Source of the DNA: Candidatus Peribacteria bacterium
GTDB lineage: Bacteria > Patescibacteriota > Gracilibacteria > UBA1369 > LOWO2-01-FULL-3
Length of the DNA stretch: 64,000 nt
Assembly: GCA_943356465.1 (NCBI GenBank)
Contig: CALREX010000001.1
Coordinates: 1 to 64,000 of the forward strand
Direction: 5' to 3'
Shown here: positions 29,733-47,455 of the stretch, piece after piece
Numbering within the stretch: the first letter of the stretch is position 1
Layout of the letters: each line of letters starts with the position of its first letter
Notes under the pieces: model-generated
Told to the model about the DNA's origin: nothing
Database searches by the model: none
Seen by the model: the letters and a program-made list of their open reading frames with translations, nothing else
Position numbers and translations under genes: made by a program

Positions 29733-29850
29733 AAGCCTCAAAGGACCATACAAATGATTTTTTGTCTACAAAAACTGGCAAAAACCCATTTTCAAGGTTT
29801 GACAAGTATCAACATAAGAAATACCTTACTCTCCATATTTTAAAATCAAA

Positions 29851-32800
29851 ATGGCACAAGAACGACAGGGTATGGAAATTGATGACCAAATAGGTACTCA
29901 GGGAGAATCAGGAAGAACACAACCCAACACAGAATCAGCAGCAAGCTCAGGCACAATCCAAAGACCAGCCACGCATACAGCAAGACATGAAACAACCACA
30001 ACGGCAGAAACCCGAGAATTAAGCATACGACAAAAATTGGAGCAAATAAAAGCCGAGATAGAAGCAAGAAAAACCAATAAACAATCAAAAGTATCAGGAA
30101 TAGTAGAATACCTTCTTTCGCATAATACAGACACAATCTCGGCGGCAAAAATAGCCGAAATAATGGGAGAAGGAAAAGTAAGCCCTGAAAACAGATTACA
30201 AATCATGGGACTACAAAATCAAAACTTCGTAAGGCACAACTTATCGTTAACCAGAAGTAGAGATGGATCAATGAGAATAATCCAAGGCAATCCAAGTCAC
30301 GAAAAAAATGAGTTACAAGAAAAAAGCGATCCAGCTGAAGAACCAGACACAAAAACTCCAACAATTCCACAACCTCAAGAACCACAACCAGACCAAAGAG
30401 CCCCATACTCAGCACCAATCATAGAATCGCAGGCCATAAAAGACATAAACACAAAAGCTCGTCTTGCACAGTTAAATATAGAGACCGTAGATCAACTATG
30501 GAAAGTAGCACTCGCAACACGCGAAGAAGTTAACGCAGCATTGATAGACGCAATTAAAAATCCACACATAAAAAATAACACGTCAGGAAGAGTAAAAAGA
30601 CAAGACGGAAACCCTGTAAACACACAAGTATATTTATTGGAAAATTTTTTAGAAACAAGAACGGCAACACAAGGAAAATTGGCAATAGGATTTCCGGACA
30701 CACAAGCACTAAAGATAGCACGCAACAATGCAAACAATAGTAAAAACAATATCTTTAAAAAACACAAACTAAGAATAGAATTCGTCAAAGACACAAAAGA
30801 GCCTGAAAAAAGCAAATGGATATTAGAATCAGAAAGAGTTAAATACGTTCAAGAACTTGGGAATAAAACCCCAAATATCTACGCTTCAGCAAAAGAAATA
30901 AAAGAAAATGATACGCTTTTCACAGACGCACCACGATTCTCACAATTTATTTTAGGTGCACTGTCAGACCTTACCATGGGTGCGACATTGGAAGAATTTT
31001 CTTTCGTAACAGGGCTTACAGAAAAAGAAATTTTAAAAGCAGTAGCTTATATAAACACATCTGTAATTCCACAAACAAGGAGAGACATAAAAATCCACAA
31101 CAGAAACGGAGTCTTAATACTCGGGACAAAAGACTCAGCGGTACAAATAGAAACACTGGAAACACGCACAGCAACAATTAACTGGAAAACAGTAGTTTTT
31201 GAAATAAGAGAAAGAATAGGAAATACACAAGCAATCGAAATAGAGGTGATCATAGAGCCTGAAGATACAGTTGTTCCGGCTGAGGCTCTTCCAACCGAGG
31301 CAGTCCATGCTGAACAAATCGAACCTGCGGGAGAAGAAATCCAAGATATACAAACAAAATTGTCCACAGTTTTAGCAAACCATAAAACAGGAGGTGCTCA
31401 GGAAACATTACTAAAAGCATTAGTAGGAACTACAGGAGAAATACCACTAGCCAAAGTAGCACAAATAATCGAGGAATCAGGACTAAGACGTAATCTCCAA
31501 AAATTCGTAGCCAACACAAGAAGACCACTCATAAAAGTCGGACTAACACTGGAAATAGATAAAGAAAAACAGGTAGTAAGACTTACAGCAGACACATCAA
31601 TACCAAAAGCCTCAGAAGAAAAACCTGCAGACACCAAAGACACATCAGCATCGAAAGCTTCAGAAGAACACGAAGAACCAGTCACATGGGAAACCGAACC
31701 AACTCAAAAAACATCATTCGGAGCAAAACTGGAAAAAGCCATCGCCTCAGGTGAATTTCATCTAAAGTCACAAACTCGCGACGTCGCAATTCAAATACTT
31801 TCAGCAATGACAAAAGAATTTGATAAACACGGCAAACCATTATCACCAGAAGAAATAGTCAGTTTAACAAAACTTTCCGACAACGAGACACACATTTCCA
31901 ATCACACCGTAGGCCACATTCTTGCAAGTGCAAAAACAAAAGCAGCACTAGAAGAAATAGGAATCTACATTGAGGTAAGAAGAATACGAAAACCTTCAAT
32001 GACAACACTATATTCATTCACAACCACACCACAGGAAAACATAGAAACAAACCCTGACGAGATAAAACAAATATTCGAAACAACCCAAAAAGAAGGCAAG
32101 ATCAAACTCGATGAAAATTTATTTGCAATATTTAAAGTATTACTTGATACAGGAAACACAGCACTTTTCGTACGAGACATAGCAGAAAAACTACCAAAAA
32201 TTACAGTACAAGCAATTGGATATAATCTTAATGTATTAAAAGAAGAATTGGAAAAAATAGGCCTCACAATAATCATAGCGGCAAAAAATATAAAACAGGC
32301 ATCAGGTGTAAACTTTAGATATAACGCATTCAGACTCGCAAAAGTACAAGTAGAAGAACCGGCCGCTCAAGCCGTAGATTCAATAGACGCAGACCAAGAA
32401 GCTACTAAACCTGATACTACAAATCCGATAGGATTATCAGAAAAAACAAAAGCAACACTCTCTAAACTTGCAGAAAATGCTTACGTCGCACCACCATTAA
32501 AAAAATTGATTACAGCATTATTAAGTAATAATGGAGTGGTAAAAAAAACCGAAGTACACACAATAATGCAAGAATCAGGGATACAGTCTGCTTTAAATGA
32601 ATTCATATCACATTCAAGAAGAACATTCAGAAAATATGGCCTAACATTAACAATCGACAGACCATTTATAAGAATTGAAGAAATAGAAAAAGAAGAAGCC
32701 GACGACATCATAGACATAAGTCCACAAGCCATATTCAAGCTAGCCGAAGGAATGGAAAAAGAAATTGAAAAAAGACTAGAAGCACTAAGAGAAGAATTGG

Positions 32801-34557
32801 CAAGAACACAAGCACAGCTGACAACAACACAAGCACAACTGGCTGAACTACAAGACCAAGCCACTAAAGCCATCGGACATGGACTCCAAAGAGCTGAAAC
32901 AATCAGAAATCTAGAAATAGAAACAGCATCCGCAAGAACACATGCTGCAGGATTAGAATCACGCCTCAAAAGTGCAGAAGCACGTGCTGCAGGCCTAGAG
33001 CTACGCGCAACTGCAGCAGAAGCCGAATCAGCACAACTCAAGCAAACCGCTCCACCATCTGCACTCCTAGCCAAAACAAAAACACTTGAAGCGACAATTC
33101 TAGAAAAAGACGCAAGAATAACAGCACTCGAAGTAGATCTCACAACAGCAAGACAAACACTAACCCAAGTACGCGCAACAGTAGCAAGAAATGCAAGCCA
33201 CGACACAAGAATAGAAGTAACAGCAGAATTTGCCAAACAAATTCAAAAACTGGAAAGCAAAATCTCAGATCTGGAAAAAGAACTAAGGCAGCTAAATGCA
33301 GCACAAACAAGAACACTTAGATTATTACAACAACAAAACCTGGATTCTCCTCAAGCTGTCGCAGATATCTCAGAGTTAACAAATGAAGCGACAAAGCTAA
33401 GAAGACGAAATATAGAACTAAAAAGATTAGCAGCCGAAGCAGAGGCACGAGCAGAAATAGCAGAAGCAAAAGCACAACCTGCAGACGTACTTCAACTCCA
33501 GGCAGAAGTTGCAAGACTTGTAGCAGAATTAGCTGCTTCTAAAGCGGAAACTCTAGCCGCAAAAGCACAACCAGCTCCATCACCGGAAGACAAAGCCACA
33601 ATTTCTCTACTTGAAAGAAAGATTGCAGAAATGCAAAGATTTATGGATCGAAAAGACAGAGAATACCAGGCAGAACTAGCGGCTAAAGAAGGAACAATAG
33701 CAACCTTAAGAAAGCAACAAAAAGCCCAAGCGCCGACAACAAATACCCCATCATCAGTAAACACAGAAGCATCCAAAAAACTCGGAGAACTACAAAGAGA
33801 ACTTGCAAAAGAAAGAGACACTACATACAACCTAAGAGAAGAACTTGCAGCAACAACTGCACAATTGCAAGACATGAAAAAAGCTCTACAGGGACAAAAT
33901 AGTAGAGTCGTAAAAATGGAGAAAAAAGGACTTGTAGATCAACTACGAGAAGAACTAGTAGAACTTAAAGCAGAGAACTTAAGACTACGACGAACAGGTG
34001 ATTCAACAGAGAGAGCAAACTTATTAGCTCTTGTACAAAGCGCTCAAGAAAAAATAGCCATACTAGAACAAAAAATCAAAGATGGAACAGAAAGAGAGAC
34101 AAAATTAAGAGACCGCCTAAGTCTTGCTCCTAAAACACCGGACGAACTTGCCGCAGAAGAGTTAAGAACAAGACGAGCACTTGCAGAAAAAGTCGGATTA
34201 GGCATTCCAAGATTAAGAGAATTAAGCAATTTAATAGATTTCACTCAAAAAGCAAGAAACACAGCACTGCCAATGGGGGCAACCAGAACAATTTTAGGGG
34301 AATTAAATGGTCTAAACTCAGAAGAAAACTTTACAAAAACAGCCTTAACTGCATTTAGAGATAAATTACAAGAATTAGAAACAGCAATCACAGAAAATAC
34401 AGCAATATCAAAATCACCAAGAACACAACCCGTAAAAGACGCAATTCGATCAGTTATAAGCTATCTATCCAGCATCCTAAATACAAACAACATAACATTC
34501 AACTCAGAAAAAAGAACCGAAATAGTAAATCAAGTTAAAAATCTTCTACAACTATAA
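29851..34557 (+). CDS. 1568-aa protein: repeated wHTH-like modules plus long coiled coil
   Basis: Single uninterrupted ORF; internal repeats ending KVGLTLEID / KYGLTLTID; Ala/Gln/Glu/Lys heptad-like region over about 32.7-34.2 kb. Confidence 0.85.
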   Translation: MAQERQGMEIDDQIGTQGESGRTQPNTESAASSGTIQRPATHTARHETTTTAETRELSIRQKLEQIKAEIEARKTNKQSKVSGIVEYLLSHNTDTISAAKIAEIMGEGKVSPENRLQIMGLQNQNFVRHNLSLTRSRDGSMRIIQGNPSHEKNELQEKSDPAEEPDTKTPTIPQPQEPQPDQRAPYSAPIIESQAIKDINTKARLAQLNIETVDQLWKVALATREEVNAALIDAIKNPHIKNNTSGRVKRQDGNPVNTQVYLLENFLETRTATQGKLAIGFPDTQALKIARNNANNSKNNIFKKHKLRIEFVKDTKEPEKSKWILESERVKYVQELGNKTPNIYASAKEIKENDTLFTDAPRFSQFILGALSDLTMGATLEEFSFVTGLTEKEILKAVAYINTSVIPQTRRDIKIHNRNGVLILGTKDSAVQIETLETRTATINWKTVVFEIRERIGNTQAIEIEVIIEPEDTVVPAEALPTEAVHAEQIEPAGEEIQDIQTKLSTVLANHKTGGAQETLLKALVGTTGEIPLAKVAQIIEESGLRRNLQKFVANTRRPLIKVGLTLEIDKEKQVVRLTADTSIPKASEEKPADTKDTSASKASEEHEEPVTWETEPTQKTSFGAKLEKAIASGEFHLKSQTRDVAIQILSAMTKEFDKHGKPLSPEEIVSLTKLSDNETHISNHTVGHILASAKTKAALEEIGIYIEVRRIRKPSMTTLYSFTTTPQENIETNPDEIKQIFETTQKEGKIKLDENLFAIFKVLLDTGNTALFVRDIAEKLPKITVQAIGYNLNVLKEELEKIGLTIIIAAKNIKQASGVNFRYNAFRLAKVQVEEPAAQAVDSIDADQEATKPDTTNPIGLSEKTKATLSKLAENAYVAPPLKKLITALLSNNGVVKKTEVHTIMQESGIQSALNEFISHSRRTFRKYGLTLTIDRPFIRIEEIEKEEADDIIDISPQAIFKLAEGMEKEIEKRLEALREELARTQAQLTTTQAQLAELQDQATKAIGHGLQRAETIRNLEIETASARTHAAGLESRLKSAEARAAGLELRATAAEAESAQLKQTAPPSALLAKTKTLEATILEKDARITALEVDLTTARQTLTQVRATVARNASHDTRIEVTAEFAKQIQKLESKISDLEKELRQLNAAQTRTLRLLQQQNLDSPQAVADISELTNEATKLRRRNIELKRLAAEAEARAEIAEAKAQPADVLQLQAEVARLVAELAASKAETLAAKAQPAPSPEDKATISLLERKIAEMQRFMDRKDREYQAELAAKEGTIATLRKQQKAQAPTTNTPSSVNTEASKKLGELQRELAKERDTTYNLREELAATTAQLQDMKKALQGQNSRVVKMEKKGLVDQLREELVELKAENLRLRRTGDSTERANLLALVQSAQEKIAILEQKIKDGTERETKLRDRLSLAPKTPDELAAEELRTRRALAEKVGLGIPRLRELSNLIDFTQKARNTALPMGATRTILGELNGLNSEENFTKTALTAFRDKLQELETAITENTAISKSPRTQPVKDAIRSVISYLSSILNTNNITFNSEKRTEIVNQVKNLLQL

Positions 34558-34580
34558 ACAAAAACTACAATCACAATCAA

Positions 34581-35021
34581 ATGGCACACGAAAAAAAATC
34601 CAAGGATAAACCAGGTAAACAAAGTGAAGCCGCAACTCCAGCCTCAAATAAGGCTGAAGCATCAACAATTCCGGAATTACTGGATTTGCCTACAAAAACA
34701 ATTTTTTCTATCAGAAGTGCTGTAAGAAAAATTATCCAAGAAACTTTAGCAAGAGCAAACAACATAGAACGTCAGGCATATTTCAGCCTAAGAGATCCGG
34801 AAAGCATCCCAAAAGCAAAGGCCAAAACAGAAACACTAATCACCACAACTCTCCAAAATCTATTAAATACACTGGATATTTTGAGCGAGCAAAATCCTCA
34901 AATAGCCACAACAATAGCATTAACACACGACAAAATTGCAAAAATTCTCAAAAGACACAAAGATTCAGGCGCAAAAGAATTTCCAAAATCACTACGCGGA
35001 TTATTAGGAATAGTCGCATAG
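34581..35021 (+). CDS. hypothetical helical protein downstream of the giant gene
   Basis: 146-aa ORF, 23 bp after the giant gene on the same strand. Confidence 0.6.
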   Translation: MAHEKKSKDKPGKQSEAATPASNKAEASTIPELLDLPTKTIFSIRSAVRKIIQETLARANNIERQAYFSLRDPESIPKAKAKTETLITTTLQNLLNTLDILSEQNPQIATTIALTHDKIAKILKRHKDSGAKEFPKSLRGLLGIVA

Positions 35022-35080
35022 AGCTTGAACACATGACACACACATGGACTACGTACAGAGTTAAAAAGGATTTAGAAAAT

Positions 35081-35701
35081 TTAGATATTCATCTCTTCTC
35101 TAAGTTTTCCAATAGATAATGTTTCTATTTGCCGAACAGCATCGCGCGTCAGATTCAGTGTTTTTCCAACTTCTTCAAGAGTAAGACCATCGCACTCCGC
35201 AACATCCAAAGCACAGGAAGAGTTGGGATCCATTTCATCAGGCTCAAGTTCAGGAAAATTCATAGTAATATGACCATTATCCGGATTCACATGCAAATAC
35301 AAATTATGACTACATCCAACATGCGGACAGGGCCTGATTCCACCCTCACAATCACCACGGGTTTTTGGTCGAACAGCATCTGTAAAAGCCAAATCATTCT
35401 CATAAGTATTCATAGCCGCTTCATACACAGCCATATCCTTCCAATATTGTTCAACAGCCAACCTGAATGATTTCATTTTTCCTTTATTTCGTGCCGTTCC
35501 GGGATATACAGGTTTTTTTGGCATAACAGGCTTGTCCAAGGCAATAGCCGCACGAATTTTAGTAGAATCAAGAACGACATTTCTTCTGGAACTAACAGTT
35601 TTTCGAACGACTAAGGAAACAGGCGTATTCACAACATCCAAAACATCGCTATCCACCTCATCAATTAGACCTAATTTTTCTGCTGATCCATCCATTTTCA
35701 T
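35081..35701 (-). CDS. protein with Cys motif and C-terminal sigma-70 region-4-like HTH (start moved to MKMDG)
   Basis: RPKTRGDCEGGIRPCPHVGCSHNLYLHVNPDNGHITMNFPELEP; LTLEEVGKTLNLTRDAVRQIETLSIGKLREEM; promoter at 35718-35746 and the upstream terminator exclude the longer start at 35857. Confidence 0.75.
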   Translation of the reverse strand: MKMDGSAEKLGLIDEVDSDVLDVVNTPVSLVVRKTVSSRRNVVLDSTKIRAAIALDKPVMPKKPVYPGTARNKGKMKSFRLAVEQYWKDMAVYEAAMNTYENDLAFTDAVRPKTRGDCEGGIRPCPHVGCSHNLYLHVNPDNGHITMNFPELEPDEMDPNSSCALDVAECDGLTLEEVGKTLNLTRDAVRQIETLSIGKLREEMNI

Positions 35702-35717
35702 TTGTAAAGAGTAGATC

Positions 35718-35746
35718 ACTATAACATCACTTTGCAAGGAGGTCAA
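35718..35746 (-). promoter_or_regulatory. promoter TTGACC-17-TATAGT
   Basis: Minus strand TTGACC (35741-35746), TATAGT (35718-35723); about 10-nt predicted 5' UTR. Confidence 0.7.
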
Positions 35747-35796
35747 TAAGGATATATCACCACGTGCAGGCATCTTCCACTTATTGAATTTTTTGT

Positions 35797-35824
35797 AAAA
35801 AAAAACCCGCCGAAGCGGGGGAAA
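35797..35824 (-). terminator. intrinsic terminator of putative ncRNA
   Basis: Minus strand CCCGC-TTCG-GCGGG followed by TTTTTTTTT. Confidence 0.85.
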
Positions 35825-36368
35825 AAGTTTTAAACTGGCTGCATATAATAGAGCCATTAAACTTTGTTTTTGTTTTAAATCCTACCAAGACTTTGGTGTT
35901 AATTTCAGTTGCACCACCAACCGCCTGTTCTCCCTTAACACGAAACCGTAGCTAGGCCATAGAGCTTGGATAAGGGCAGGACCGCACCCAGAAAGGTCTG
36001 GGCATCTCCGGGATTACAAAGCGAACTTCGCAATACCATCACCTCAGTGAGGACAGAGAGAAAAGTAAATTGACGGTCCTTTTACAGGAAGATTGGGAGC
36101 TCCTCGTTGAGCCAACAATCTTTAACGCTTTTTGTTTGTATTTTTATTTTTGTGCGTTTCCGCTATTTGCTTTCCTCATCTCTCCACTCTTAGAAGAGAA
36201 GAAAATTTTTATTTTTGTTTTTATATTTTTATGGAGTTGAAGTCTTTTAAACTACTTCTCCGTTTTATATTCTGTGATTTTAATGTACAAGTGCTTTTCT
36301 AGGGCGTTTGATTTTTTCAGTGTAAGTGTTCTGTATTTTTTGTGAACGTTTTTCTTATCTGTAAAAAT
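35806..36368 (-). ncRNA. putative structured non-coding RNA of about 560 nt, family unidentified
   Basis: No ORF of 60 aa or more between 35857 and 36489 on either strand; consensus promoter upstream; tetraloop terminator; several self-complementary hairpins; GC-rich core in AT-rich surroundings. Confidence 0.75.
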
Positions 36369-36374
36369 CATACT

Positions 36375-36402
36375 AGTATATCCAATGTAGAAAAATTGTC
36401 AA
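36375..36402 (-). promoter_or_regulatory. consensus promoter TTGACA-16-TATACT for the ncRNA
   Basis: Minus strand TTGACA (36397-36402), TATACT (36375-36380). Confidence 0.8.
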
Positions 36403-36597
36403 AATTCTAATGTAGACACATCGATAAGAATATTATGAAATAAAAATCAGCGTGGCTCAAGAAGCCATAAAACGGCACATACAGAGATTTATATTTTTAA
36501 AGAAATTCTTTTTTTATTCTTCCACTCTTGTAAAGCATTCCAACATTGATATAGGATAAACCCATTAAGAAAAATGACATTTCTCAAAGAATAAACC

Positions 36598-47063: not shown

Positions 47064-47140
47064 GCGTTCGTAGCTCAGTTGGATAGAGCGTTGGCTTGCG
47101 GAGCCAAAGGTCGCAGGTTCGATTCCTGCCGGACGCACCA
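47064..47140 (+). tRNA. tRNA-Arg (anticodon GCG), CCA encoded
   Basis: Full cloverleaf read by eye: acceptor GCGTTCG/CGGACGC, D arm AGCTCAGTTGGATAGAGC, anticodon stem TTGGC/GCCAA with loop TTGCGGA, T arm GCAGGTTCGATTCCTGC. Confidence 0.95.
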
Positions 47141-47271: not shown

Positions 47272-47341
47272 TGGTGGAGATGTCGGGAATCGAACCCGTG
47301 TCAACTAATTCGCAGTTAGTTAACGCAAACCTGCCATCCCC
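47272..47341 (-). tRNA. atypical 70-nt tRNA-like / tmRNA-TLD-like RNA with G3-U70, CCA encoded
   Basis: Minus strand GGGGATGGCAGGTTTGCGTTAACTAACTGCGAATTAGTTGACACGGGTTCGATTCCCGACATCTCCACCA: acceptor GGGGATG/CATCTCC, arm AACTAA-CTGCGAA-TTAGTT, T-loop TTCGATT, CCA. Confidence 0.7.
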
Positions 47342-47455
47342 ACCCCAAAATGCATACTGGTTATATCAGATGGATATTAAATTTTCGTTAAAAAAACTTA
47401 ATATTTTTCTAAAATAATGTAATATAAAAAACGCAATATATTAATCATATTCAAT

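Follow-up and report, generated by a model that had tools for sequence, protein, structure and literature searches.

Here we describe a 1568-residue protein (the giant) encoded in a 64,000-nucleotide stretch of DNA (the window; positions 1 to 64,000 of contig CALREX010000001.1) from a Candidatus Peribacteria bacterium, an uncultured Peregrinibacteria cell. Its gene is an open reading frame (ORF) that begins with ATG and occupies 29851..34557 on the plus strand, in agreement with the initial annotation. Our best explanation, to which we assign a probability of roughly 0.4, is that the giant is an accessory, island-encoded, non-enzymatic and multivalent DNA-binding and bridging protein that probably acts with the sigma-like protein encoded next to it. 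Its basic winged-helix modules, of which three are secure and which may number up to seven, would bind DNA at several points from acidic, flexible linkers, and its long coiled coil would self-associate via its conserved middle, so that, as we propose, a single oligomer could hold several DNA segments together. The giant and the adjacent Cys-rich, sigma-region-4-like protein would probably serve to compact or silence a portion of the chromosome or of incoming DNA, or to control its transcription. This reading is based on the homology between modules, a confident winged-helix model, the alternation of basic modules and acidic linkers, the periodicity and conserved core of the coiled coil, the lack of a catalytic domain, a module number that varies between orthologs, a gene fusion in genome G021, and the joint absence of the island's genes from congener G001. 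Prediction or comparison gives us the gene, the module homology, the predicted winged-helix fold, the coiled coil, the island boundaries, its gain and loss, and the fusion link to the sigma-like protein; judging only by fold and charge the giant may bind DNA, and we infer its oligomerisation, bridging and partnership with the sigma-like protein.

The winged-helix fold is supported for three modules, m1, m4 and m7, because of their homology, the model predicted for the m7 family, and the partially confident predictions for the three modules within the longer chain. Modules m4 (residues 504-579, 31360..31587, +) and m7 (residues 870-942, 32458..32676, +), whose clear homology had already been claimed, align locally with a score of 102, whereas shuffles average 23.6 +/- 4.4 (z 17.6) and none of 500 reaches that score. 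Two modules of the ortholog in G002, a congener of the window's own genome (G000), fall in the same family (shuffle z 8.8-18.3), and m1 (residues 52-147, 30004..30291, +; VEYLLSHNTDTISAAKIAEIM; pI 9.8) is joined to it by profile comparison (E 0.0013 over 66 columns; score 19.7, versus a maximum of 12.8 over 20 column shuffles). The chain thus carries at least two homologous modules in tandem, m4 and m7, with m1 linked to them. AlphaFold2 (AF2) predicted the m7 family from a four-member alignment with a pLDDT of 84.9, a pTM of 0.76 and a core above 90, and the element order of the model, H-H-E-H-H-E-E, contains the three-helix core and two-stranded wing of a winged helix. The neighbours of this model in a Foldseek search of the PDB are winged helices, so that the non-winged-helix fold named beforehand as the outcome that would overturn the proposal did not materialise. 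Evidence for m1 and m4 is weaker: residues 1-960, modelled with a two-sequence alignment, reached an overall pLDDT of 40, and a Foldseek search with this 960-residue model gave nothing significant, but m1 (pLDDT 54-81, helices followed by two strands), m4 (pLDDT 53-65) and m7 appear in it with partial confidence and in the element order of winged helices.

Three to five further modules had been proposed in addition to m4 and m7; m1 is borne out by profile and structure, but for four others no sequence link to m4 and m7 emerged, since the candidate homology of m2, m3, m5 and m6 failed against column shuffles in profile comparisons. These four regions have low-confidence, winged-helix-compatible secondary structure in the 1-960 model. 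Region m2 (residues 216-332, 30496..30846, +; pI 9.9, net charge +9) tentatively shows three helices followed by two strands at a pLDDT below 50. The tentative winged helices m5 (residues 638-725, 31762..32025, +) and m6 (residues 757-830, 32119..32340, +; FKVLLDTGNTALFVRDIAEKL) are likewise based on secondary structure and are missing from G002; m6 has a pairwise z of 5.0 with G002 module b4, a link absent by profile. Region m3 (residues 340-435, 30868..31155, +), also a tentative winged helix, is shared with proteins of another genus, as described below; the best hit of a PDB profile search with it, a chloroplast ribosomal protein (E 0.022), was rejected.

A basic pI of 9.0-9.9 characterises six of the seven modules, an acidic one of 4.1-4.5 the linkers. 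The region that follows the modules (residues 946-1460, 32686..34230, +) is rich in Ala, Glu, Gln and Leu and displays a significant hydrophobic periodicity of 3.4-3.75 residues in about half of the 70-residue windows. The expected coiled coil of about 500 Ala/Gln/Glu-rich residues is therefore real, but it is patchy, with gaps and scattered prolines. Its conservation peaks at residues 1101-1200 (33151..33450, +), where G000 and G002 are 64-68% identical. The C-terminal domain that had looked conserved did not hold up: the helical segment at residues 1461-1568 (34231..34554, +) is poorly conserved, residues 1501-1568 being among the least conserved parts relative to the G002 ortholog (18-29% identity), and residues 1451-1500 do not align between the two proteins. 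By eye, homology of the C-terminus to proteins encoded at the corresponding position in G015, G024 and G020 appeared plausible, but it failed our tests.

It should be noted that several observations weigh against a DNA-bridging function. The winged-helix assignment of regions m2, m3, m5 and m6 is insecure, m3 is acidic (pI 5.3) and as such the sole non-basic module, and winged helices also act as protein-protein modules, as in KITE proteins, cullins and ESCRT-II. The giant might accordingly be a scaffold that uses its winged helices and its coiled coil to bind proteins instead of DNA, which would fit with the coiled-coil core being its most conserved part. We consider this most improbable, given the basic character of the modules and the association with a sigma-like DNA-binding domain.

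Searches with the whole giant did not assign it to a family. Pfam gave nothing above the cut-off (best E 0.047, a coiled coil), NCBIfam only the SMC coiled coil TIGR02168, far below threshold, and PHROGs, PADLOC and the PDB sequences no match; hence, the giant is not recognisable by PADLOC as a known anti-phage defence protein, and Pfam, NCBIfam, PHROGs and PADLOC contain no catalytic domain that matches it. A scan of a collection of genome contigs returned the G002 record as the sole match, one of a viral contig collection returned none, and a match in G016, antisense to a solute-binding-protein-like gene, was rejected as chance. Paper searches, whose coverage of the literature is incomplete, found no published description of either the giant or the structured RNA discussed below. 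The gene is present once in the whole G000 genome, a 98%-complete assembly of 1.08 Mb in seven contigs, and among the congeners (G001, G002 and G003) only G002 has an ortholog; the data searched contain two full-length sequences. The G002 ortholog, of 1082 residues, lies at the equivalent locus and has two m4-like modules versus m4 to m7 in G000; therefore, module number varies between congeners.

The giant belongs to an island of about 6.0 kb that contains three genes, the other two encoding a 146-residue protein (34581..35021, +) and a convergently transcribed Cys-rich, sigma-70-region-4-like protein. In G001, the segment corresponding to 29735-35770 is absent as a single block, the three genes are jointly missing, and only about 130 bases separate the end of carA from the RNA region, making this locus a sharp empty site; the giant has no match anywhere in that genome. 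In G003, the island is mostly deleted and short remnants stay: the start region of the giant is kept (protein similarity reached by none of 1000 shuffles) and is closely joined to the tail of the 146-residue gene (DNA match 73%), which is followed by a different protein of 350 residues. The 146-residue protein has relatives in G003 only, where a related domain ends the 350-residue protein (E 1.6e-16). Because it is absent from G001 and reduced to remnants in G003, the giant gene is accessory and dispensable in this genus. These same absences make an essential organising role unlikely. Of the tandem DNA-binding, nucleoid- or replication-organising protein suggested by the initial annotation, the architecture of tandem winged helices plus a coiled coil is retained for at least three modules, while the organising role itself is a hypothesis. 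None of the three genes encodes an integrase or recombinase, and the island does not qualify as an integrative mobile element.

The sigma-like gene (35081..35857, -) matches Pfam region 4 (sigma70_r4, PF04545; E 3.2e-7) and no region 2, and so its product is not a sigma-70 factor in the full sense. Four Cys residues are invariant across six relatives. The true start is probably near 35701, because the first 52 codons of the ORF (35702-35857, -) overlap the conserved terminator of the RNA and a promoter-like site at 35746-35718. The domain has no match in phage or plasmid collections. Its link with the giant comes from G021, in which an m4-like module is fused to the Cys-rich/sigma-like domain, encoded in G000 by a gene of its own; an HMM of m4 and m7 ranks this G021 protein first (E 5e-4). 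Through this neighbour, it is possible to read the giant as the very large regulator that had been offered as a second option. In its specific form, a large transcription factor acting with the Cys-rich protein on RNA polymerase, with the coiled coil as an oligomerisation arm, this explanation draws on the adjacent convergent gene and the G021 fusion, but we regard it as rather unlikely, considering that the sigma-like protein matches region 4 only and that G015 and G024 have a related protein and no sigma-like gene at the locus. As a separate observation, G004 has a Cys-rich/sigma-region-4-like gene and a ParB-like gene in divergent orientation (L031:7196-13235), close to its rnpA-, yidC- and jag-like genes and followed by a gene for a 938-residue protein that may hold several winged helices.

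The island occupies a slot bounded by carA on one side and, on the other, by the structured RNA that lies upstream of dinG. The carA-dinG interval varies across the taxonomic family and in some genomes contains nothing long; the giant is a fast-changing gene in this variable chromosomal slot. Some slot proteins of other genera carry modules homologous to those of the giant. An HMM built from m3 of G000 and G002 places the slot proteins of G024 and G015 (another genus; 710 and 706 residues, respectively) at the top of 1095 frames from relatives (E 2.9e-4 and 9.5e-4). With the reverse HMM the giant is the best-ranked of 1006 G000 ORFs, albeit weakly (E 0.013), and hhalign relates m3 to these proteins with a probability of 91.6 (E 8e-7). 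Like the giant, they have an m3-like domain, a long coiled coil and a position between carA and the RNA; they differ from it in having far fewer N-terminal modules and a C-terminal domain without demonstrable kinship. A 406-residue slot protein of G004 appeared similar by eye, but the giant was not found with it, and it was rejected as a relative. A 553-residue protein of G021 (L107:6875-8536), encoded beside rplK, rplA and nusG, has about four winged-helix-like stretches and matches the m3 profile weakly (E 0.002).

Other contents of the slot suggest a role in defence or against mobile elements, in which the island would sit in a defence-type hotspot, the giant would recognise foreign DNA, and module turnover would reflect conflict. 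The slot of G007 contains a type II restriction-modification pair accompanied by PD-T7-like and HNH genes, that of G006 a ResIII helicase, and HNH-like proteins border the RNA in G001, G002, G003 and G013; the presence/absence pattern and rapid divergence of the giant would also fit. However, the slot holds non-defence genes as well, namely for an S-layer protein in G009 and a peptidase in G018, and the giant has neither a PADLOC match nor an effector domain, so that we consider a defence function doubtful. The HNH-like family, recognised by eye from its C-terminus, is encoded immediately upstream of the RNA and in the same orientation in G001, G002, G003 and apparently G013 (L029:8945-10246, -; L030:4829-6277, +; L184:995-1777, -; L097:1616-2491, -), has a homolog elsewhere in G000 (C4:57295-58422) and gives no match in Pfam or PADLOC.

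The RNA that bounds the slot (35797..36370, -; core model match 35880-36195) is a strong side finding. Although non-coding, the interval that separates the sigma-like gene from dinG (35771-36476) shows 80-91% identity to its counterparts in G001 and G002. Its minus strand carries the region's best promoter match, TTGACA-16-TATACT (11/12) at 36402-36375, as well as a strong terminator at 35819-35806, and in an alignment of 14 copies compensatory changes affect 33 of the 56 predicted pairs. A covariance model finds the RNA in 39 of the 353 genomes of the class: 25 of the 30 in its own taxonomic family, plus 14 that belong to other families within the order (E 1.6e-20 to 1.7e-7), none of these 14 having been used to build the model. 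Its position upstream of dinG recurs in G036 and G078, members of other families, and G015, G024 and G005 have two direct copies in the carA-dinG interval. In G015 and G024 these copies lie on either side of the slot gene, and positionally equivalent copies of the two genomes are 97.7-98.6% identical. The RNA matches no described RNA family: Rfam gave no match for the window copy at E values up to 0.1 and only sub-threshold matches for four other loci. CrcZ (29 bits for one copy versus a cut-off of 95, probably reflecting A-rich composition) was rejected, as were tmRNA and RNase P RNA, both of which sit elsewhere in the genome. By eye, a GGTGGTG loop may form a pseudoknot with a downstream CAACACC. 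The RNA provides a landmark shared by several families of the order and is itself open to experimental study. Elsewhere in the window, two convergent tRNA-Arg(gcg) genes lie about 130 bases apart (47064-47140, +; 47272-47347, -).

Genomes of candidate phyla encode many giant proteins without any family. The one described here resolves into modules of known fold, present in different numbers in close relatives, and its locus has a clean empty site, so that its gain, loss and function are testable. The chromosome-segregation set of G000 is bare for a 98%-complete genome: a Pfam profile found no ScpB, a scan for Walker and signature motifs found no SMC (only UvrA fits; the result depends on the completeness of the assembly), and neither a ParB relative nor a ParA motif was found. 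A broader possibility is that the carA-dinG slot of Peregrinibacteria, with the undescribed RNA as its anchor, encodes a novel class of modular, rapidly evolving proteins made of tandem winged helices and a coiled coil. Together with a Cys-rich sigma-region-4 protein, these would bridge or silence DNA with no ATPase involved, in cells that have no SMC-ScpAB. We hold this to be unlikely as a whole; if true, ATPase-free bridging in such cells would add a new mode of DNA organisation or silencing.

Three known systems invite comparison. OmpR/PhoB-type winged-helix DNA-binding domains (Trans_reg_C) have helices followed by a strand-turn-strand wing, as do the giant's modules; however, the giant has no Pfam match to them even at E 1, and no receiver domain. 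SMC proteins have a long coiled coil of similar composition, but the TIGR02168 match of 25.8 bits (cut-off 567) covers the coiled coil alone, and the giant has no ATPase head domains. The nearest folds of m7 are those of KITE proteins (ScpB, MukE, Nse1/Nse3, JetB), which also contain tandem winged helices: the top five Foldseek matches are KITE winged helices, from JetB of Wadjet, MAGE-G1/NSE1 and Nse1/3/4 (probability 0.77-1.00). With E values of only 0.014-0.1, and winged helices being common, this resemblance is a weak lead. The giant could be a KITE-like partner of, or substitute for, an SMC complex that organises the chromosome of a cell without SMC-ScpAB, as the SMC-like, sub-threshold coiled coil and the missing ScpB, SMC and ParB might suggest. 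We find this quite improbable: the SMC absence comes from scanning a 98%-complete assembly for motifs, no PF04079 match was obtained in the Pfam scan, no SMC or kleisin gene lies with or near the giant, the island encodes no ATPase, and G001 does without the giant, which argues against an essential SMC substitute. Moreover, KITE proteins are small subunits of SMC-kleisin complexes, whereas the giant is a single chain of 1568 residues that brings its own coiled coil.

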